A stretch of 24,415 nt of DNA from a virus, in IMG/VR virus record IMGVR_UViG_3300032562_000172, positions 1 through 24,415 of that record; one strand, 5' to 3'. Below are positions 2,971 to 24,415 of the stretch, in pieces; the first letter of the stretch is position 1; every line of letters starts with the position of its first letter. The notes beneath the pieces were generated by a model. The model was not told where the DNA came from. It worked only from the letters and a program-made list of their open reading frames with translations, and did not search any database. The position numbers were made by a program, and so were the translations under genes.

Positions 2971-2990
2971 CCGGGAGGGCTAAAAACTTA
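2971..2990 (+). repeat. Direct repeat, left copy, flanking the alanine-array gene
   Basis: CCGGGAGGGC followed by TAAAAACTTA. A near copy (CCGGGAGGGC then CAAATAACTTA) begins at 3651, 680 bases downstream. This copy supplies the GGGAGGG ribosome binding site for the gene starting at 2990. The two copies bracket that gene. Confidence 0.6.
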
Positions 2991-3667
2991 TGAAAACCCT
3001 ATTCAAGACGCTGGCAAATGGTCTCAAGTCAGCGCACGGCAACTGCGCTTGGAAAATTGGCGAGTGGAAGCAAGTCAAGGGCAAGCCAGTCCTTTGCGAG
3101 AACGGCTTTCATTGCAGCGAGCGAGTGCTGGACGCGATGGGCTATATTTGGACCGCATTCATTGCGAGAGTCGAAGTCGCTGGAGAAAGTCTAGCCCAAG
3201 CTGACAAGAGCGTGCATCAGAAGATGCGGCTGGTCGAAGTCTGGGAATGGAAGAAGGAGGACTCGGTTTCTCTTGCCATCTTCGCGGCGAAACTGGTCAT
3301 TGGAATTTACGAGAAGAAATACCCCGGCGAGGATCGCCCGAGAGAGGCAATTGAGGCCGCAAAGAAGTGGCTGGCTGATCCGACTGAGAAAAATAGCGCG
3401 GCGGCTTACGCGGCGGCTAACGCGGCTTACGCGGCGGCTCACGCGGCGGCTAGCGCGGCGGCTTACGCGGCGGCTAACGCGGCTTACGCGGCGGCTCACG
3501 CGGCTAACGCGGCTCACGCGGCTTACGCGGCGGCTAACGCGGCGGCTAGCGCGGCGGCTAACGCGGCGGCTAACGCGGCGGCTTTAGAAGCCACCCTATC
3601 CAAGATCGAGGCGTGGATTCAAAAAAGACTATCAGAGAAAACACCCATCACCGGGAGGGCCAAATAA
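2990..3667 (+). CDS. DUF7666-like protein with alanine-rich array
   Basis: A 225-residue protein. The N-terminal part (about 10-90) has the KIGEWKQVKGKPVLCENGFHCSE pattern, close to the DUF7666 type (a VxGxxxxCxxGFHxCE core), then WEWKKEDSVSLAIFAAKLVIGIYEKK. Residues about 136-198 are an alanine-rich array in which one residue (N, Y, H or S) interrupts AA or AAA units. The last ~25 residues form a charged helix-like tail. Such N-termini are found in phage and bacterial proteins, often with alanine-rich extensions, but have no established function. GGGAGGG at 2974-2980 supports ATG 2990. The gene lies between two near-identical 20-base direct repeats, suggesting that it entered as a cassette. 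Confidence 0.75.
   Translation: MKTLFKTLANGLKSAHGNCAWKIGEWKQVKGKPVLCENGFHCSERVLDAMGYIWTAFIARVEVAGESLAQADKSVHQKMRLVEVWEWKKEDSVSLAIFAAKLVIGIYEKKYPGEDRPREAIEAAKKWLADPTEKNSAAAYAAANAAYAAAHAAASAAAYAAANAAYAAAHAANAAHAAYAAANAAASAAANAAANAAALEATLSKIEAWIQKRLSEKTPITGRAK
3398..3583 (+). repeat. GCG/GCT alanine-codon array
   Basis: About sixteen units of GCG (once or twice) plus GCT, each ended by one variable codon. The variable codon is AAC, TAC, CAC or AGC, so Asn, Tyr and His differ only in the first base. The alanine codons are almost invariant. This looks like recent expansion by slippage or unequal recombination, with variation confined to one codon per unit. Confidence 0.85.
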
Positions 3668-4144: not shown

Positions 4145-5026
4145 ATGTGCAATTACAAGTCAGCCATCGCCGTTCAAGACGAATCCGCAAAGGGCGGTTT
4201 TCGCCTTCTGCTGTCTCCCTGGACCGAATCCCATTCGGAATTGGAGACCATCTTCAAACTCAACTACGGTCCGCGCCTGAATTACGCCAAGATCGAGTTC
4301 TCGCCCGAAAGCCTTGCCACAGCGCATCAGGTCGAAACCTACAAATTCAATCTCGACGAGGAGCGAAAACCCGAATGGTTCACGGACGAAATCCAGGACG
4401 CCGTGATCGAGCGCATGAAGCAATACGTCTCGGGCATCATCGTTACAGGCGACGTTGCGCTCCTGATCGGCGGCCAATTTGTGATCGCTCCTTCCGCGAA
4501 GATCGAATGTGCGCACGCGATGGTTATTTCCTCGATTTGTGGCGGCACCGTGAACGCGATTTGTGGCGGCACCGTGAACGCGATTTGGGGCGGCACCGTG
4601 AACAAGATTTGTGGCGGCACCGTGAACGAGATTCGGGGCGGCACCGTGAACAAGATTTGTGGCGGCACCGTGAACGAGATTCGGGGCGGCACCGTGAACG
4701 CGATTTGTGGCGGCACCGTGAACGAGATTTGTGGCGGCACCGTGAACGCGATTTGTGGCGGCACCGTGAACGCGATTTGGGGCGGCACCGTGAACGCGAT
4801 TTGGGGCGGCACCGTGAACGCGATTTGTGGCGGCACCGTGAACGAGATTTGTGGCGGCACCGTGAACGCGATTTGTTGCGGCACCGTGAACAAGATTTGT
4901 GGCGGCACCGTGAACGAGATTCGGGGATACTTCTCTGGCCTGATAGGGGGGATCTACAGTGGCGCGACCATCGTTAAAGACAACAGGCCGAAGGAGGCCG
5001 CGAGCGCGACGGAGGTGAAGAAATGA
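4145..5026 (+). CDS. Octapeptide-repeat protein, probable beta-solenoid
   Basis: A 293-residue protein. Residues 1-132 form a mixed non-repetitive domain that I do not recognise. Residues 133-260 are sixteen consecutive 8-residue repeats of the form GGTVN-x-I-z, where x is A, E or K and z is C, W or R. The last ~30 residues (GYFSGLIGGIYSG and a charged tail) cap the array. Regular short repeats with alternating small and beta-branched residues usually form a beta-solenoid, so a rigid rod with stacked x and z side chains is likely; this is inference. No signal peptide or membrane segment is seen. The stop overlaps the next start as ATGA. Function unknown; binding or structural roles are both possible. 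Confidence 0.75.
   Translation: MCNYKSAIAVQDESAKGGFRLLLSPWTESHSELETIFKLNYGPRLNYAKIEFSPESLATAHQVETYKFNLDEERKPEWFTDEIQDAVIERMKQYVSGIIVTGDVALLIGGQFVIAPSAKIECAHAMVISSICGGTVNAICGGTVNAIWGGTVNKICGGTVNEIRGGTVNKICGGTVNEIRGGTVNAICGGTVNEICGGTVNAICGGTVNAIWGGTVNAIWGGTVNAICGGTVNEICGGTVNAICCGTVNKICGGTVNEIRGYFSGLIGGIYSGATIVKDNRPKEAASATEVKK
4541..4924 (+). repeat. Sixteen 24-bp tandem repeats
   Basis: The unit is GGCGGCACCGTGAAC, a variable codon (GCG, GAG or AAG), ATT, and a variable codon (TGT, TGG or CGG). All other positions, including silent ones, are identical except in unit 15, where the first GGC is replaced by TGC. There are no spacers, so it is not a CRISPR array. It encodes the octapeptide repeats of the 4145-5026 gene. 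Confidence 0.95.
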
Positions 5027-16840: not shown

Positions 16841-17545
16841 ATGTCTCTCCCCATCATCGATCCTACCCAACCCGCCGACTCAAATGCGATCAGCGCGGGA
16901 GCATCAGAAATCCGCAAGATTTGGACGTACCTTCAGAATTTCCTGAGTGTGTCGTTCAACATGACCACGGGGGAGCTGAACGCCTCGGCTGTCCCGAACG
17001 GCCTTCCGACACCGTATGGCGCGGCGGGGACGATCCTGCGGTCCACGGGACCGAGTTCAACCCCCTCATGGGATGTGGTGGGGAATTTCATTCCGGTGGG
17101 TTTAATCGCCCCGTATGGCGGTGCCTCGGTTCCCTCGGGGTGGCTGGAGTGCGACGGATCCCTGGAATTGATTGCAACCTATCCGGCCCTTGCCGCGATT
17201 TTAGGCACAACCTTCGGAGGCGACGGGGTTACGAATTTCGGGCTCCCGAACCTAAAGGGTAGGACAGCGGTTGGCCTAGGGACCGGTGACGCACCCGACG
17301 CGACGAACTGGACTCTGGGCGAAAAGGAAGGCGAGGAAACCCACACGCTGACCGTTGACGAAATGCCCGCCCACACCCACAGCGTTTCGGCGAATTTGAA
17401 TAACGCGCAGGCAAACGGAAACGTGGGTGCTGCTGGTGGCATTCTCGCCGACCATTCCGCATCTGCGACCGGATCGACCGGAGGAGGCACCTCGCACAAT
17501 AATCTTCAGCCCTCTCTAGGGCTTCGCATGATCATCAAGTCGTGA
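16841..17545 (+). CDS. Tail collar domain protein
   Basis: A 234-residue protein. Residues 86-146 form a phage tail collar domain: GLIAPYGGASVPSGWLECDG, YPALAAILGTTFGGDGV, then FGLPNLKGRTAVGLG. A TVDEMPAHTHSV motif (about 171-182) follows, typical of the part after the collar domain, and the C-terminus reads NLQPSLGLRMIIKS, also typical. Such proteins are short tail fibres or baseplate-associated tips. The N-terminal ~80 residues are a variable attachment part. AGGA six bases upstream supports ATG. It overlaps the next start as GTGA. Confidence 0.9.
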   Translation: MSLPIIDPTQPADSNAISAGASEIRKIWTYLQNFLSVSFNMTTGELNASAVPNGLPTPYGAAGTILRSTGPSSTPSWDVVGNFIPVGLIAPYGGASVPSGWLECDGSLELIATYPALAAILGTTFGGDGVTNFGLPNLKGRTAVGLGTGDAPDATNWTLGEKEGEETHTLTVDEMPAHTHSVSANLNNAQANGNVGAAGGILADHSASATGSTGGGTSHNNLQPSLGLRMIIKS

Positions 17546-18120
17546 GACGTAAACTCGAAAAAGATTTCATGCGCCCCGGCATGGGGCGGTTTGAGGTGGT
17601 GATCAAGTCGCCGACCCTCGGGCTGATGACGCGCATTCCCGGTGACCAGCCGGATCCGCGCTATGCGACTGCGGCATCAAACGTGCGGTTTGATGATGGC
17701 GTTGTGCGGTCCGCTCCGGGTATCGAGCCGATTCTTGGATCGGTTCTCGACAGCCCGGTGTGCCTGATATTCCAGTGCAACGTGATGCCTTCCACCGGCA
17801 TGAACCGTCAGGTTGCGGTGTTGATCGCCTCGGAGCAGAAGCTGTACTCGCTGACGAAGGCGAGCGAGACGGTGTTCGCTTTCCCGGAGCAGTCGGTGGT
17901 GGAGTTTCGGGGTGACCTGACCACGCACGATGCCATAAGGCAGTTGCCGACAACGCAAACCGTGATTCCTCAGACCATCGCCGTGAGCATCAGCGATGAC
18001 ATGGAGATCTGGAAGCTGCGGCAGCGTGCGGTTGGCGAGGATGACAACGACAATGGCTTCATTCTCCCGTTCGATTACGGCCTCGTTTCAAACAATAAAA
18101 TCTGGGTGAGGATCCGCTGA
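17542..18120 (+). CDS. Tail-associated protein with truncated gp10-like N-terminus
   Basis: 192 residues from GTG 17542, or 183 from ATG 17569. Residues about 24-60 (LGLMTRIPGDQPDPRYATAA then NVRFDDGVVRSAPG) resemble the start of long podovirus tail or DNA-stabilisation proteins that cap the head-tail channel, but those are several hundred residues longer. Residues about 150-192 form a different module (EIWKLRQRAVGEDDN...GFILPFDYG...NNKIWVRIR), which recurs in the next gene. It could be a truncated or re-fused stopper-type protein. The stop overlaps the next start (TGATG). Confidence 0.6.
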   Translation: MRRKLEKDFMRPGMGRFEVVIKSPTLGLMTRIPGDQPDPRYATAASNVRFDDGVVRSAPGIEPILGSVLDSPVCLIFQCNVMPSTGMNRQVAVLIASEQKLYSLTKASETVFAFPEQSVVEFRGDLTTHDAIRQLPTTQTVIPQTIAVSISDDMEIWKLRQRAVGEDDNDNGFILPFDYGLVSNNKIWVRIR

Positions 18121-18374
18121 TGTACCAATTCCCGCTTCCACAGGCACAGGTCGTTGCATTCCAAGGCCAGATCACCAGCATCGCCGGGATCCGTGGAATC
18201 CCCACGCTTGGCCTACAATTCCCGTGCGCCTATGTTTTCAGCCTGAACGATGACAGTCAGGAGTGGAAGCTGCGGGCAAAGGGAGCGGGAGAGGCGGATG
18301 ATGGAGTCACCTTCCTGCTTCCAAACGATTACGACTCGATGACCAACAACGTGATCTGGGTGAGGACACTCTGA
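18120..18374 (+). CDS. Small protein sharing the C-terminal module of its neighbour
   Basis: 84 residues. The last ~40 residues ([15 protein letters not shown], then [19 protein letters not shown]) align with the C-terminal module of the preceding gene: WKLR, a GE.DD acidic turn, a LP.DY turn, and NN.IWVR. The first half ([20 protein letters not shown]) has no counterpart there. It starts within the preceding stop (TGATG) and ends within the next start (TGATG-type overlap), so translation is coupled. Function unknown; a structural role in the tail is plausible from position. Confidence 0.65.
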
Positions 18375-20008
18375 TGAAAAATCTGTTTAAACTGATCTTT
18401 ACGGTTTGGTTTTCGCTGGCAATTTGTGGCGGCGCGTTAGCCCAGCATCAGGCGGTCACGGTGTTGCCAAACGGGACATCGGGACACATCGGAACGATCA
18501 ACACTTCGGGGATAACCTACTACAATTTTAGTTCCGGAATCACTGTGGATTTCACCGGGGTAACGATTGTGGGGGGGACAGGGGGAAGCGCGTCATGGGG
18601 TGCGATCACCGGAACGCTTACAAACCAGACCGATCTCGTCTCTGCTCTTGGCACCAAGGCACCGGTTACGACGGCAACAACGAGCCAGCTTCTCGCGGGA
18701 AACGGATCCGGTGGATTTACAAATATTACTCTGGGGACGAATCTTTCCCTTGCCGGGGCGACCCTTAACGCAAGTGGGAGCGGAACGTGGGGATCAATCA
18801 CGGGAACCCTATCGAACCAGACCGATTTAAACACGGCACTGAACGCAAGGATCACAGCACCGGCCACTCCGTCCCTGAACAATTTCCTTTATTGGAACGG
18901 ATCGGCATGGGCGAACGCGACTCTGGGAACAAACCTTTCGATGTCTGGCAGCACGCTGAATGCGTCAGGAGGGGCAGGCAGTGCAAACTGGGGATCGATT
19001 GGAGGAACGCTTTCTGCACAGACGGACTTGAGCAGTGCGCTGGCCGGTAAGCAATCGACGCTTACATTTGCCCAATCCGTCACGAATGGATCCGGGACGA
19101 TCACCCTAACCGGGGATACCCCTACTCCTGCGGCCTCGTACTACTACGGGACAAATTCAAGCGGGACTCGCGGCTGGTTCGCCATTGCGAATCCGACAGC
19201 ACTTTCGTTCTCGACCGGCCTGACAAATACCCTCGGGACGATTACGGTAAACGCAATCAGCCTTGCGAGCGCGGGATCCGGCGGGGTGACCGGGAATCTC
19301 CCGGTTGGGAATTTAAACAGCGGGACATCGGCATCGGCATCGACGTACTGGCGCGGAGACGGGACATGGGCAACGCCTCCGGGGACCGCGTACACGTTTT
19401 CCCAGTCGGTCTACAATTCCTCAGGCACGGTCACGCTGACCAACGACAGTGCTTCTCCGGGGAACAGTTATTATTACGGGACGAACAGCGGAGGAACTAA
19501 AGGATGGTTCGCAATCCCTAATCCGACCGCTCTGACCTTTTCTACGGGCCTTACGAACACGGCTGGTACGGTCACCGTCAACGCGATTAATCTCTCTACC
19601 TCGGGCAGCGGAGGAGTAACTGGAACGCTTGCAGTGGGCAATGGCGGGACCGGGGCGACAACGGTGGCTGCGGCGAACCAAAACATGACACCGGGTACGG
19701 TGACAGTTACGGAAAGCGGTGGCGCGGCGACAATCGACTGGGCTCTGAGCAATTCCTTTGACCTTACCCTGACCACGGTTGGCGGTGGAAACTGCACGAT
19801 TTCCTTCGCCCATGTTCAGGACGGGCAAATAATCACCATCGACATCCACCAGACGGGTGCGAATGCCTACACGGTTACTTGGCCCACAATGAAATGGCCC
19901 AGCAATAACGCTCCGATAATGACTTCAGGGACGCACACGGACACCTACACGGTAAAATACAACGCCGTATCCGGTTATCTGCAAGGCTCCTATGTCCAGA
20001 ACTACTAA
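18374..20008 (+). CDS. Fibre-like repeat protein with signal peptide
   Basis: 544 residues. Residues 1-23 look like a Sec signal peptide: basic NLFK, a hydrophobic [11 protein letters not shown] core, and ALA before Gln24. Cys18 is not in a good lipobox. The mature part has three WGxIxGTLxxQTDLxxAL units (about 75, 134 and 205) of the kind seen in phage tail fibres, and a duplicated block of about 80 residues (FxQSVxNxSGTxTLTxDxxxPxxSYYYGTN..., first near 235, again near 342). The C-terminal ~90 residues ([16 protein letters not shown]) form a beta-rich tip. GAGG upstream supports ATG. It overlaps the next gene by 17 bases. A fibre with a signal peptide is unusual for a virion part. Confidence 0.75.
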
Positions 20009-20849
20009 GCTATTCCTGATCGCGTGCGCGGTGGCGGTATGCGCCCCGCTTATCGCCTTTCAGCAGATCCCGTTTGGTCTGTGGGGTCAGGTTGTGTCCC
20101 ACGGAACAGTCACGTTCAGCACGGTTGGAACGACAAGCTGGACGGTGCCTGTGGGTATAACGAGTGTTGATGTCCTTGTGGTGGGCGGCGGTGGTGGTGG
20201 CGGAGAGGCAACAACTCCTGACGGTGAGGCTGGCGGCGGCGGCGGCGGCGGCGGCGTAATCCGAAACACAACCTATTCGGTCACGCCGGGATCAACCATT
20301 ACGGTAACCGTAGGAAATTATGGTTCTTGGGATACGAATGGAGGGTCATCGATATTTGGAACCCTTGTCGCGGTGGGAGGTGGTCATGGAGGATATTACA
20401 ACTCCGCTGGAGCAACCGGTGGGTCAGGCGGTGGAGCAGCGGCAACTTATTCGAACCCCGGTTCCGGTACAGCCGGGCAAGGAAATACCGGAGGCAATGG
20501 GGCAAATTCGGCGGGAGGTGGTGGCGGCGGTCAGGCATCCACAGGCTCAGATGGGGTCTACTCAACCCGAGGAGTTGGCGGCAATGGTGGGACCGGGTAT
20601 CTTTATGCCGGTGTGTATTATGGAGCCGGTGGGGGAGGCGGGGCAACCGGAGTCGCCAGCGTTGGAGGTAATTATTCCACGCCGCCCGGAACAGCCGGTG
20701 CTGGGCATGGTGGTGACCACAATGGTGTCGCCACGGATGCAACTCCCAACACTGGATCCGGTGGTGGAGGTGGCGGCGGTTACTCAGGAAGCCAAACAAA
20801 CGTAGCTCCGGGGTTTGGAGGTTCTGGGATTGTAATTGTGACCTATTGA
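19992..20849 (+). CDS. Glycine-rich adhesin-like protein with signal peptide
   Basis: 285 residues. Residues 1-22 are a likely Sec signal or membrane segment ([17 protein letters not shown]). Residues from about 47 show the [20 protein letters not shown] pattern of glycine-rich phage fibre domains, followed by about 200 residues dominated by Gly, Ala, Ser and Thr with regular GGGG blocks, and a final [10 protein letters not shown] strand, typical of these domains. Such proteins probably form polyglycine-II-like sandwiches at fibre tips and contact receptors. ATG 19992 is coupled to the previous gene by a 17-base overlap. A (GGC)8 tract lies inside. Confidence 0.8.
20232..20255 (+). repeat. 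(GGC)8 triplet tract
   Basis: Eight perfect GGC triplets encoding a polyglycine run in the glycine-rich adhesin-like gene. Pure triplet repeats are prone to slippage, so length may vary between phage isolates in steps of one residue. Confidence 0.95.
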
Positions 20850-20864
20850 GGATTTAAACGCATA

Positions 20865-22352
20865 ATGCCCATGAAAACACTGATGAACAAACTTTTCTCG
20901 GTCGCCTTGCTTGCTTTGGGGATACCGGTCATGGCGACAACTCCCGCGCCGACCGATGTGGCGGGTCTGGCGGTGAACCCGTCAGGTGTGTTTAAATACC
21001 TGAACGTCGATGCGAACGGTGCGCTGATGCTGGCAACCTCTTCGCTGCCGGGCGCAACGGTAAGCGCACCCAGCGCGGTGTTTGGGACCGCTGTGAATCC
21101 ATCGGGGAAGTTCCAGTACCTGAGTGTAGACGCGAACGGAGGGCTGATCGTGAGCGGATCGAGCATCCTTCCATCAATGAGCGCGGGTACGGCGAATGCA
21201 ATCCTTACGAACAACGGATCGGCGGCATCGTGGACATTAACGCCGACAGGTCTGACATCGATAAACGGTCTGGCATTTCCCACGGTTGGGACCGGGCAGT
21301 ATTTCTCGGTTGGTTTAAACACGACTGCGGTGAAGACGGCGGCGACCTACGCGGCCCAGCCGGGTGACTTCGTTCCCTGCGACACGACGAGCAACGCGAT
21401 CACGATCACGCTTCCCACCGCTCCTGCCGACAAGACAAGGGTGGCGGCAAAGCTGGTGATCATGGGAGGATCGAACGGGGTCACGATCAACACGGGCGGG
21501 ACCGATGTCTTCAACAAGGTCGGGGGAGGGACGAGCTATTCGATGCCTCTTGTCAATCAGGCGGTTTCCTTCCAGTACGCGGCGGGAACACCGGGCATCT
21601 GGTATGCGGTCAGCAACGACGTAGCCCTGTCCCAGCTAGACGCCCGTTATCCGCAACTGGCAGCGGGAACGAACACGTTCACGGGTACATCGCTCTTGGG
21701 AGTGAACACGGTAAAATCGGCTGCGTTGAGCGATCTGACTCTCGGCACGGGTACGTTCGGGACGGGGATCACGCTGGCTTCGGCTACGGGGACGGCCACG
21801 TTCGCGGTGAGTCCGGTAGTGAGCACGTTTTCGACGGCTGGGGTAGTGGTTAATAATTCGCTGGGTGTTCTGTCGAGCACAACGGCCCTTCCTAGCACGA
21901 CTACGGCGACAACCCAGTCGGTTCTGGATAATACGACTGCTGTCGCGACCGACGCTTTCGCCAATGCTGCAGGCAGGGCTGCTTTCGTCGGAACGATTGC
22001 GGCTCCCGACACGACTGCGGGCGCGATGACGCTGGTCGCTCCGCTGACCATCGTCTACACCGACTGCACCGCCGCTAATCGCACCTACACGCTTCCGGCT
22101 GCTGCTGCGGGCAACAAGGGCATGGCGGTTATGATCGTCGCTGCCGCTGTCGGGGCGCATCACATCAACTTCCAGCCCTATTCCGGCGACATCTTCTACG
22201 TCTCGGGCGCTGCCATCACGGTAAACTACTATTTCCAAGATGCGTCGCCTTCGGTCGGCGACTACGCGGTCGCGATTTCGGACGGCGTGCATTGGAGCTT
22301 CACCTTCGGGACTGGCTACATCGGCACCTGGGCTGCGGCTTCCGGCGCTTAA
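20865..22352 (+). CDS. Fibre-like protein with signal peptide and N-terminal duplication
   Basis: 495 residues, or 493 from ATG 20871, which gives the more usual signal start MKTLMNKL. A hydrophobic core FSVALLALGIPV ends in VMA before Thr25. Residues 33-60 and 73-100 are repeats (AVNPSG.F.YL.VDANG.L). Later parts are beta-rich and Ala/Thr/Gly-rich, with ALSQLDARYPQLAAGTNTFTG, a trimerisation-type pattern common in phage fibres, near the middle, and a C-terminal HHINFQPYSGDIFYVSG domain. ATTTAAAC at 20852 sits before the start and GTTTAAAC at 21313 is inside (Gly-Leu-Asn). The likely role is a surface or host-contact protein. Confidence 0.75.
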   Translation: MPMKTLMNKLFSVALLALGIPVMATTPAPTDVAGLAVNPSGVFKYLNVDANGALMLATSSLPGATVSAPSAVFGTAVNPSGKFQYLSVDANGGLIVSGSSILPSMSAGTANAILTNNGSAASWTLTPTGLTSINGLAFPTVGTGQYFSVGLNTTAVKTAATYAAQPGDFVPCDTTSNAITITLPTAPADKTRVAAKLVIMGGSNGVTINTGGTDVFNKVGGGTSYSMPLVNQAVSFQYAAGTPGIWYAVSNDVALSQLDARYPQLAAGTNTFTGTSLLGVNTVKSAALSDLTLGTGTFGTGITLASATGTATFAVSPVVSTFSTAGVVVNNSLGVLSSTTALPSTTTATTQSVLDNTTAVATDAFANAAGRAAFVGTIAAPDTTAGAMTLVAPLTIVYTDCTAANRTYTLPAAAAGNKGMAVMIVAAAVGAHHINFQPYSGDIFYVSGAAITVNYYFQDASPSVGDYAVAISDGVHWSFTFGTGYIGTWAAASGA

Positions 22353-22358
22353 TCAGCC

Positions 22359-24401
22359 ATGAAATTCCTCCACCGTTTAGCAGTTCTGCTCGCCCTGCTT
22401 GCGGCTGCGGTCCTGCCTGTTTCGGCGCAATGGGCTTCGATTCTTAGCGGATCGAATGTCGGCTACCTGTTCAGCAAGTCGGGCGGTGCCGCGGCTCTGT
22501 ATTCGCTTCAAGGCAGCAAGTCCGACGCGACCTACCAGTGCGACAGTTCGTCTCCTCCGAAGATTTCGCTGATCGCGGATCGCAGCGGCAACAGCTCCAC
22601 GAATTGCTTGGTGCTGAATGGGGTCACATATAACTACGCTTGGGCGCCGAGTTCCGCTGCGCTGCAAATAACGGGCGACATTGATCTAAGGTGCCAGATC
22701 ATGCTGTCGAGTTGGTCATCCCAGCCGAACAACCCAAGCCTGATCTCGAAGGACGATGTCTCCACGAGCCGGGACTACACCTTCTACATAAACTCCAGCG
22801 GCAGGTTCGTTTTCTTGACGAGCACCAACGGGAGTTCGACGCGGGCGGCGACTTCACAGAACGCAACCGGGCTTGCGGCCTATTCCGTTTCGTGGTGCAG
22901 GGTGACATACGAGGCTTCGTCGGGACACGTCAACTTCTACATTTCGCCGGACGGCATTTCTTGGTCAACGCTTGGGGCGCAGCAGACAATAGCCTCCGGG
23001 GCGATCCACGCGGGAACCTATCAGCTTGAGCTTGGGGCCACGGAGCAGAACAACGGCAATATGGCCGGTGTCATGTATCGCGCCTGTGTCTACAACTCCA
23101 TCGCCAGCGGAACGACGAACACGGGTCCGATCAGCAACGCCTACCTTGTGTTTGACGCGGACTTCTCGCGGGTGGCAAAGCTGTTACCCCAGTTCACGGA
23201 GTTCAATCCGAACAACGCGCAGGCGACGGTGACGATCGCCAGCACCGGCGCGACAGGAGCACGCATCGCAGGCGAGAGGGACCTCGTGCAATTAGTAGCT
23301 GCCAGCGAGCCATTATTGCTGGCGTATGCAGGGACGAAATACTCTTACAACAATGGCACGGCGGGATACACGCTGACCACGCCAACGCAGACCATTACGG
23401 GCAATACGACGCTCACCTTTGACTTGGCCCTGTCCAGCTATGCGCCCGCATCGAACGTAACCCTCTTTGACAAGTTGAGCGGCAACAACGGGATTCGCGT
23501 GCTTCTGCTCACAACGGGAGTTGTGCGCCTTGTGGTGGGCGATGGCAGCGCGGCGACGAACGTGGACTCGACCTCTGCCTGCTCCATCACGGCGGGCGCA
23601 CGCGGCACGCTGGCAATCGCATGGACTGACGGGGTGGGCGCGACCTTCACGCAGAACGGGTCAACCCCGCTAGGGACGGTTGGATCGGTTCATACGCTCA
23701 CAAACGCCGCAGTAACTGCAACGGTGGGGCCGTGGACGGGCAGCATCTACAGCGTCACGGTGGCAAGCGCGGTGGCAACCCTCACCTGCAACCCGAACGC
23801 CAGCTACTCCTCGGGCGCGACATGGACTGCCACTACGGGCGAGGTCTGGACGATCAACGGCGGCGCGTGCGTCGTGGGCCAAAATTGCGCGTACTTCAAC
23901 GGGACGAGCAGCTACATGGCAAGTGCGCCGTTTAGCTACGCGCAGCCGGAGTCCATCTATGCGACATTCTCCCTGCTAAATTCCGGCACAACGCCAACCT
24001 ATCAGGATGTGTTTGATGGCGGCACCTACAATACGGGTGCGCTTTTCGTTGTGGGGGCCGACACACCCACAAAGCCGCTTCGGCTTTACGCTGGCTCAAA
24101 CGCCACCAGCGGCTTTTCCAACACGAAGGCAACCCAGAACCTATGCGCTTCCGCGTTTGTATTCAACGGGGCAAGCTCATCGGGGAAGGTCAACCTAACC
24201 GCACCCATTACGGTAAACGTGACCCCCGGCGCAAACAACATGAACGGGCTGACGCTCGGGAGCGGTGCAGGAACCGGATCGTCCCAATACACGAACATCC
24301 TAGTCAGCGAACTTCTCCTGCGCAGCGCAGCCGACAGCGCAGCGACACAGGCCCAAATCGCAAATTATCAGATTAGCAAGTGGAAGATCGTCACGCCATG
24401 A
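22359..24401 (+). CDS. LamG-like multi-domain protein with signal peptide
   Basis: 680 residues. A signal peptide is clear: MKFLHR, hydrophobic LAVLLALLAAAVLP, then VSA before Gln24. Three concanavalin/LamG-like jelly-roll units can be seen: about 98-250 (DIDLRCQIML... VNFYISPDGISW... MYRACVYN), about 335-470 (TLTFDLALSSY... GTLAIAWTDG), and about 500-676 (CAYFNGTSSYM... ILVSELLLRSAADSA... NYQISKW). Such domains bind carbohydrates or proteins, so adhesion to the host surface is likely. The start is six bases after the previous stop. The stop overlaps a further start (ATGA at 24398), so the gene series continues. Confidence 0.8.
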   Translation: MKFLHRLAVLLALLAAAVLPVSAQWASILSGSNVGYLFSKSGGAAALYSLQGSKSDATYQCDSSSPPKISLIADRSGNSSTNCLVLNGVTYNYAWAPSSAALQITGDIDLRCQIMLSSWSSQPNNPSLISKDDVSTSRDYTFYINSSGRFVFLTSTNGSSTRAATSQNATGLAAYSVSWCRVTYEASSGHVNFYISPDGISWSTLGAQQTIASGAIHAGTYQLELGATEQNNGNMAGVMYRACVYNSIASGTTNTGPISNAYLVFDADFSRVAKLLPQFTEFNPNNAQATVTIASTGATGARIAGERDLVQLVAASEPLLLAYAGTKYSYNNGTAGYTLTTPTQTITGNTTLTFDLALSSYAPASNVTLFDKLSGNNGIRVLLLTTGVVRLVVGDGSAATNVDSTSACSITAGARGTLAIAWTDGVGATFTQNGSTPLGTVGSVHTLTNAAVTATVGPWTGSIYSVTVASAVATLTCNPNASYSSGATWTATTGEVWTINGGACVVGQNCAYFNGTSSYMASAPFSYAQPESIYATFSLLNSGTTPTYQDVFDGGTYNTGALFVVGADTPTKPLRLYAGSNATSGFSNTKATQNLCASAFVFNGASSSGKVNLTAPITVNVTPGANNMNGLTLGSGAGTGSSQYTNILVSELLLRSAADSAATQAQIANYQISKWKIVTP

Positions 24402-24415
24402 GCCGCACCTTCTTA
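24398..24415 (+). CDS. Start of a further gene, cut by the window end
   Basis: ATG at 24398 overlaps the preceding stop as ATGA and reads MSRTFL to the window end. The first residues resemble the MSRTTKLFL start of the gene at 19992, hinting at another signal-peptide protein. Only six codons are visible. Confidence 0.35.

Follow-up and report, generated by a model that had tools for sequence, protein, structure and literature searches.

The DNA analysed here, referred to below as the window, is a stretch of 24,415 nucleotides (24.4 kb) making up positions 1 to 24,415 of the IMG/VR virus record IMGVR_UViG_3300032562_000172. Its gene content is that of a phage and includes, by Pfam and PHROG matches, the terminase large subunit, the portal protein, an SU10-type major capsid protein (PF17236), two SU10 adaptor-like proteins and a tail-collar protein, after which come the four genes considered in this study. 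Three near-identical contigs overlap the window and two of these extend it; the longest, of 58,715 bp, carries a 172-bp repeat at both ends (99.4% identical) and includes the window's terminase, and the window is therefore part of a circularly closing SU10-type phage genome of approximately 58.7 kb. Alignments of the capsid and terminase proteins against genome contigs, made for host identification, found no relative. Several features of the upstream region can be recorded in passing. A P63C domain is fused to a Rha-type phage regulatory protein at 1376-2299, and the ORF at 2306-2944 carries a DPPW motif of the kind characteristic of MT-A70-type adenine methyltransferases, making that family a candidate assignment. 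The C-terminal half of the protein encoded at 2990-3667 has a long alanine-rich AAYAAANAAYAAAHAA repeat, and the protein encoded at 4145-5026 has many tandem eight-residue repeats (GGTVNxIx), the array lying in an intact translated frame and giving a weak beta-helix match.

The tail genes immediately upstream of the four, all on the plus strand and all lacking a signal peptide, encode a collar-domain protein (16841..17545; PF07484, E 1.1e-22), a 192 aa short form of the PHROG 3287 virion structural protein (17542..18120), which is approximately 800 aa in relatives, and an 84 aa protein (18120..18374). The sequence of this last protein resembles the C-terminal segment of the 192 aa protein, as if part of the interval 17542-18374 had been duplicated. 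The four genes then follow consecutively on the same strand, with ORFs starting at 18374, 19992, 20865 and 22359. The start codons are well supported, since in none of the four is there an in-frame start upstream of that used, the ATG of gene 1 shares one base with the preceding stop codon (TGATG) and genes 1 and 2 have 17 bp in common. Each protein begins with a basic n-region, a short hydrophobic h-region, a helix breaker (P or G) and small residues at positions -3 and -1, with no later transmembrane (TM) segment, and all four are rich in A, G and S. Besides this fibre-type composition, they share a location within the tail gene block, with the capsid, adaptor and collar genes lying upstream.

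Gene 1 (18374..20008) encodes a fibre-like protein of 544 aa whose predicted Sec-type signal peptide (18374..18442; score 6.17 on the scale described below) would be cleaved after residue 23 (ALA/QH); the body contains a repeat region with a YWRGDGTW fibre motif and matches PHROG 25379, 'tail protein' (E 2e-10). Gene 2 (19992..20849) encodes a glycine-rich protein of 285 aa (Pfam Gly_rich_2, PF21722, E 3.9e-23) with a signal peptide at 19992..20057 (score 5.29; LIA/FQ, predicted cleavage after residue 22). The 495 aa fibre-like product of gene 3 (20865..22352) has the signal peptide MPMKTLMNKLFSVALLALGIPVMA / T (20865..20936; score 6.17; VMA/TT, predicted cleavage after residue 24) and two N-terminal VNPSGxFxYLxVDANG repeats, and gave no significant family match in Pfam or PHROG. 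Gene 4 (22359..24401) encodes a fibre-like protein of 680 aa with the highest-scoring signal peptide of the four, MKFLHRLAVLLALLAAAVLPVSA / Q (22359..22427; score 7.05). Of the cleavage sites proposed in the initial annotation, those of genes 1 to 3 were also the top-scored sites here; for gene 4 the scorer preferred AAA/VL, yet the proposed VSA/QW after residue 23, with Pro at -5, appears the more natural site from the sequence. The mature product of gene 4 contains ten cysteines, those of genes 1, 2 and 3 one, none and two, respectively. An IMG/VR search with genes 3 and 4 returned as relatives only copies of the same virus, and by tblastn gene 4 weakly resembles tail proteins of actinophages (E 1e-6), with no Pfam match and no PDB relative by sequence search. 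The domains first read into these proteins thus stand for gene 1 (fibre-like) and gene 2 (glycine-rich), while gene 3 belongs to no significant family and the LamG-like domain proposed for gene 4 is not borne out, a single-sequence AlphaFold model of that protein being unusable (mean pLDDT 32). No virion-docking domain was recognized in any of the four proteins by Pfam or PHROG, nor by PDB sequence search with genes 1 and 4, and Pfam gave no match to a YadA-type C-terminal membrane anchor, as in trimeric autotransporter adhesins, and neither Pfam nor PHROG to the eight-stranded Lom/Ail beta-barrel domain.

Signal peptides were assessed with a scorer built for this analysis from n-region charge, hydrophobic core and the -3/-1 residues, with weights that approximate known cleavage-site rules, so that its scores rank proteins and are not probabilities. 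On the 87 annotated Escherichia coli K-12 genes used for calibration, all 15 exported proteins scored at least 4.77 and all 47 cytoplasmic proteins at most 3.1; the high-scoring inner-membrane proteins had later TM segments. The signal threshold was passed by exactly four of the 28 window genes, the four consecutive ones, all others scoring -1.9 or lower. Given four signal-bearing genes among 28, the chance of their being just the last four is 1/20475. The presence of Sec-type signal peptides on four consecutive genes, as first annotated, is thus upheld, and the sequence features make it very probable that the four proteins undergo real Sec export.

Relatives of the window phage were fetched by capsid protein (72-75% identity), and the two most informative, G002 (75%) and G004 (74%), match the gene order of the window up to the tail genes and then carry signal-bearing runs of fibre composition of their own. 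In G002 the run comprises signal-bearing proteins of 1566, 129, 619, 196 and 515 aa, the last with a weaker score (4.4), followed by a lipoprotein; in G004 it comprises proteins of 971 aa (score below threshold, the signal being judged by eye), approximately 84 aa (the gene cut by a contig junction), 766 aa and 86 aa, again followed by a lipoprotein. Among the signal-bearing bodies are a right-handed beta-helix and a tailspike module that is weakly pectate-lyase-like, and BLAST detected no similarity between the G002 and G004 fibre bodies and those of the window. By sequence, then, the relatives retain predicted signals in the same gene run though the fibre bodies differ. The first fibres of G002 and G004 have their N-terminus in common. 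They form the only related pair that can be aligned, and in it conservation is lower in the signal than immediately past the predicted cleavage site, the pattern to be expected if the signal is removed. After the terminal lipoprotein of both runs come further envelope-type genes. In G002, as in the window's virus, the fibre run has lipoprotein and class 3 lipase/esterase genes downstream of it (L002, 13651-14566; L107, 12341-13539), which possibly have a role in release or envelope modification.

Four further records (G003, L092, L093 and L095) stop short of the informative region, and G006 has no signal-bearing fibre run. More distant relatives (G007, G014 and G016; 43-58%) each have one small signal-bearing fibre-like gene, and among cultured phages whose capsid protein is distantly related (22-26% identity) signal-bearing fibre genes are absent. 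In ten related genomes or genome fragments taken together, signals were found in 14 of 36 fibre-like genes vs 13 of 555 others (odds ratio 26, p 8e-12), fibre-likeness being a composition criterion, the 'others' including lipoproteins and the genes of related phages being non-independent. Glycosyltransferase-like genes, recognized by eye, lie near the tail genes of the relatives L094 and L098, where there is no fibre run. In Roseobacter phage CRP-810 the structural region includes a gene for an OmpA-family protein with a signal (L086, 11261-12016).

The arrangement recurs in unrelated phages. Among 62 non-redundant complete IMG/VR proteins with the fibre domain of gene 1, scores were bimodal: 16 carry a signal (15 a clean signal peptide, one a lipobox) and the remainder are ordinary signal-less fibres. 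Four signal-bearing fibre genes stand in a row behind the baseplate block of L066, a cluster of four to five occurs in L072/G013, and further runs are found in L021, L006 and L037/G012, these contigs being unrelated. In the named Bradyrhizobium phage ppBdUSDA122-1 (host USDA 122), two consecutive signal-bearing genes directly follow a tail protein, the second being annotated as a tail fiber protein. The 865 aa fibre of this phage is predicted to start with AEQSSY once cleaved; the Leptospira phage LE3 and Rhizobium phage RHph_N28_2 proteins with a domain in common with the Bradyrhizobium fibre have no signal. The 'Membrane-anchored cell surface protein' of MW202524, which matches gene 1, was likewise rejected as an example for want of a signal peptide. 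The initial annotation's system of exported fibre-like proteins encoded in a tail locus is thus well supported at the level of predicted signals, and is recurrent and not peculiar to this phage.

In three phages the signal is placed exactly in front of a docking domain. In L072 cleavage is predicted after residue 20; residues 21-145 align with PHROG 'tail protein' families, beginning at profile position 2, and residues 21-144 match the Dpo31 tailspike of Cobetia phage Carin1 over its residues 2-120 (PDB 28lx, with the same sequence in 8ck1; E 8.5e-11). The D1 domain of Dpo31 has been located at the virion base by cryo-EM (PMC13317679). The annotated coding sequences of Dpo31 and of Pelagibacter and Escherichia phage tail proteins start at or within one codon of the graft point, so that in the alignment Met1 of these cultured-phage proteins falls on the last residues of the signal. 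The same exact juxtaposition is seen in L022/G017 and L037/G012. No other copy of the Dpo31-type docking domain was found in any of the three records, the sole copy carrying the signal. A wider look for fibres with the docking domain, made with single sequences since the alignment was too divergent, yielded only close relatives. In addition, the mature N-termini of the signal-bearing proteins of G016 and G007 match a signal-less G014 protein near its Met1, from which it follows that export is not obligatory. Together with the precise grafts, this match suggests that the signal is a modular prefix, processing of which would restore an ordinary virion N-terminus. Cysteine is also more frequent in mature signal-bearing fibres, at 0.95 per 100 residues (n=17), than in signal-less ones, at 0.43 (n=45; Mann-Whitney p 4e-4), in a comparison that ignores shared ancestry and host differences and in which a few signal-less ORFs may be in the wrong frame; a higher content is as expected for periplasmic folding.

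Virion assembly in tailed phages, including the making and attachment of fibres, is cytoplasmic in the textbook account. Our working hypothesis is that the four genes encode tail-fibre or tailspike-type proteins prefixed by cleavable Sec signal peptides, which would cross the inner membrane through Sec and have the signal removed by signal peptidase I. The most likely destination of the proteins is periplasmic maturation followed by joining of virions at lysis. Folding and trimerization of the fibres, in some cases with disulfide formation, would take place in the periplasm during the cytoplasmic assembly of capsids and tails; when the cell lyses, fibre-less virions would meet the fibres, which would then attach. 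Fibres that are in the periplasm or already released before lysis may also make receptors inaccessible or cleave surface polysaccharide. Taken as a whole, this sequence of Sec export, periplasmic maturation and attachment at lysis is in our view an even call. The retention of a docking domain next to the signal speaks for continued contact between the mature protein and the virion, and is our main reason for preferring virion fibres over free secreted proteins.

The strongest competitor is that the fibres are exported and never join virions. They would then be adhesins or depolymerases of the infected cell, either free or attached to its surface, that might mask receptors (superinfection exclusion), trim exopolysaccharide or prevent re-adsorption of progeny to debris. 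Several signal-bearing proteins look enzymatic: those of L091, L096 and L037 are right-handed beta-helix or pectate-lyase-like, and one at the tail-fibre position of L066 (11353-12885) has a sialic-acid-specific acetylesterase domain (PF03629). The lipoprotein after the run and the class 3 lipase, present in G002 and in the window's virus, could likewise be read as an envelope-directed set. Precedent exists in Lom of phage lambda, which is exported to the host surface and has its gene between tail genes (PMC12309495), and in bacteria that use phage-like fibres or tailspikes as exported proteins (MAT fibres, PMC10769870; WceF, PMC7949094). A free protein, however, would have no need of the docking domain that forms the exact mature N-terminus in three phages, and in diderm hosts Sec alone reaches only the periplasm. 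With no docking domain recognized in the window proteins and with the enzymatic-looking family members, free fibres keep about a third of our confidence, which makes them a possible reading and not the preferred one.

It is improbable that the hydrophobic N-terminus stays uncleaved and anchors the fibre in the virion, a role initially suggested for it, or in a membrane. Fibre N-terminal segments do normally contact the virion, and some hydrophobic segments, as read from the sequence, are up to approximately 17 residues long. All four, however, have the short core, helix breaker and small -3/-1 residues of a cleavable signal, and among 44 fibre-like proteins selected by hydrophobic core, irrespective of any cleavage site, 17 (39%) have AxA after the core, vs 14% in control windows. 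The docking domains of cultured phages, onto which the signals are grafted, work without a hydrophobic segment, and this together with the lower conservation of the signal in G002 and G004 disfavours an anchor. That the signals are products of chance, start-codon artefacts or functionless vestiges of captured host secreted genes is more improbable still, for though richness in A, G and S makes AxA triplets common and the fibre modules are plausibly of host origin, the scores are cleanly separated from those of the cytoplasmic calibration proteins, alternative upstream starts are lacking, the ten-genome enrichment is strong, and the signals are retained beside different fibres in relatives and recur in unrelated phages.

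Several known systems resemble parts of the preferred scheme of fibres exported and then added to virions. The Dpo31-type tailspike of Carin1 is homologous, from its second residue, to the mature N-terminus in three signal-bearing phages, but it and its cultured relatives begin at Met1 with no signal peptide, and no docking domain of this T7/Dpo31 type was detected in the four proteins of the window. A gene position after internal virion proteins, as in T7-like fibres, is also seen for signal-bearing fibres. The mosaic adhesive trimer (MAT) proteins of Bdellovibrio bacteriovorus are signal-bearing phage-like fibres, in which the signal peptide precedes a conserved beta-rich domain of approximately 130 aa (PMC10769870); by their published description they resemble the present proteins in being tail-fibre-like and trimeric, with a signal peptide and organization as a multigene adhesive set, but they are encoded by bacterial genes and displayed on the bacterial surface, whereas the four genes of the window sit in a phage tail locus. 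WceF of Pantoea stewartii, a Tat-exported enzyme of tailspike fold (PMC7949094), similarly combines this fold with an export signal peptide, though its signal is of the Tat type and its bacterial gene lies within a polysaccharide cluster. Export of the MAT proteins and WceF indicates that phage-fibre-like folds can be exported. Lambda Lom (Ail/Lom) is signal-bearing, encoded among tail genes and destined for the host envelope, but is a beta-barrel outer membrane protein encoded by a single gene, with no fibre. A search of the open-access literature found no description of signal peptides or Sec cassettes on phage tail fibres; subscription papers may contain one.

We would extend the scheme only tentatively, somewhat short of an even call, to the proposition that in many environmental tailed phages fibre cassettes are exported via Sec, processed to a docking N-terminus and oxidized and trimerized in the periplasm, the virion being completed at or after lysis. 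If fibres are indeed exported and added at lysis, the place where adsorption specificity is built changes, a route to disulfide-bonded fibres is offered, and neighbours co-infecting or lysing together could swap fibres. If instead the fibres remain free, secreted adhesins and depolymerases would emerge as a widespread class of phage proteins. The named Bradyrhizobium phage makes the question testable and, on either reading, many uncharacterized 'tail fibre' genes would have products with an unexpected cellular location.
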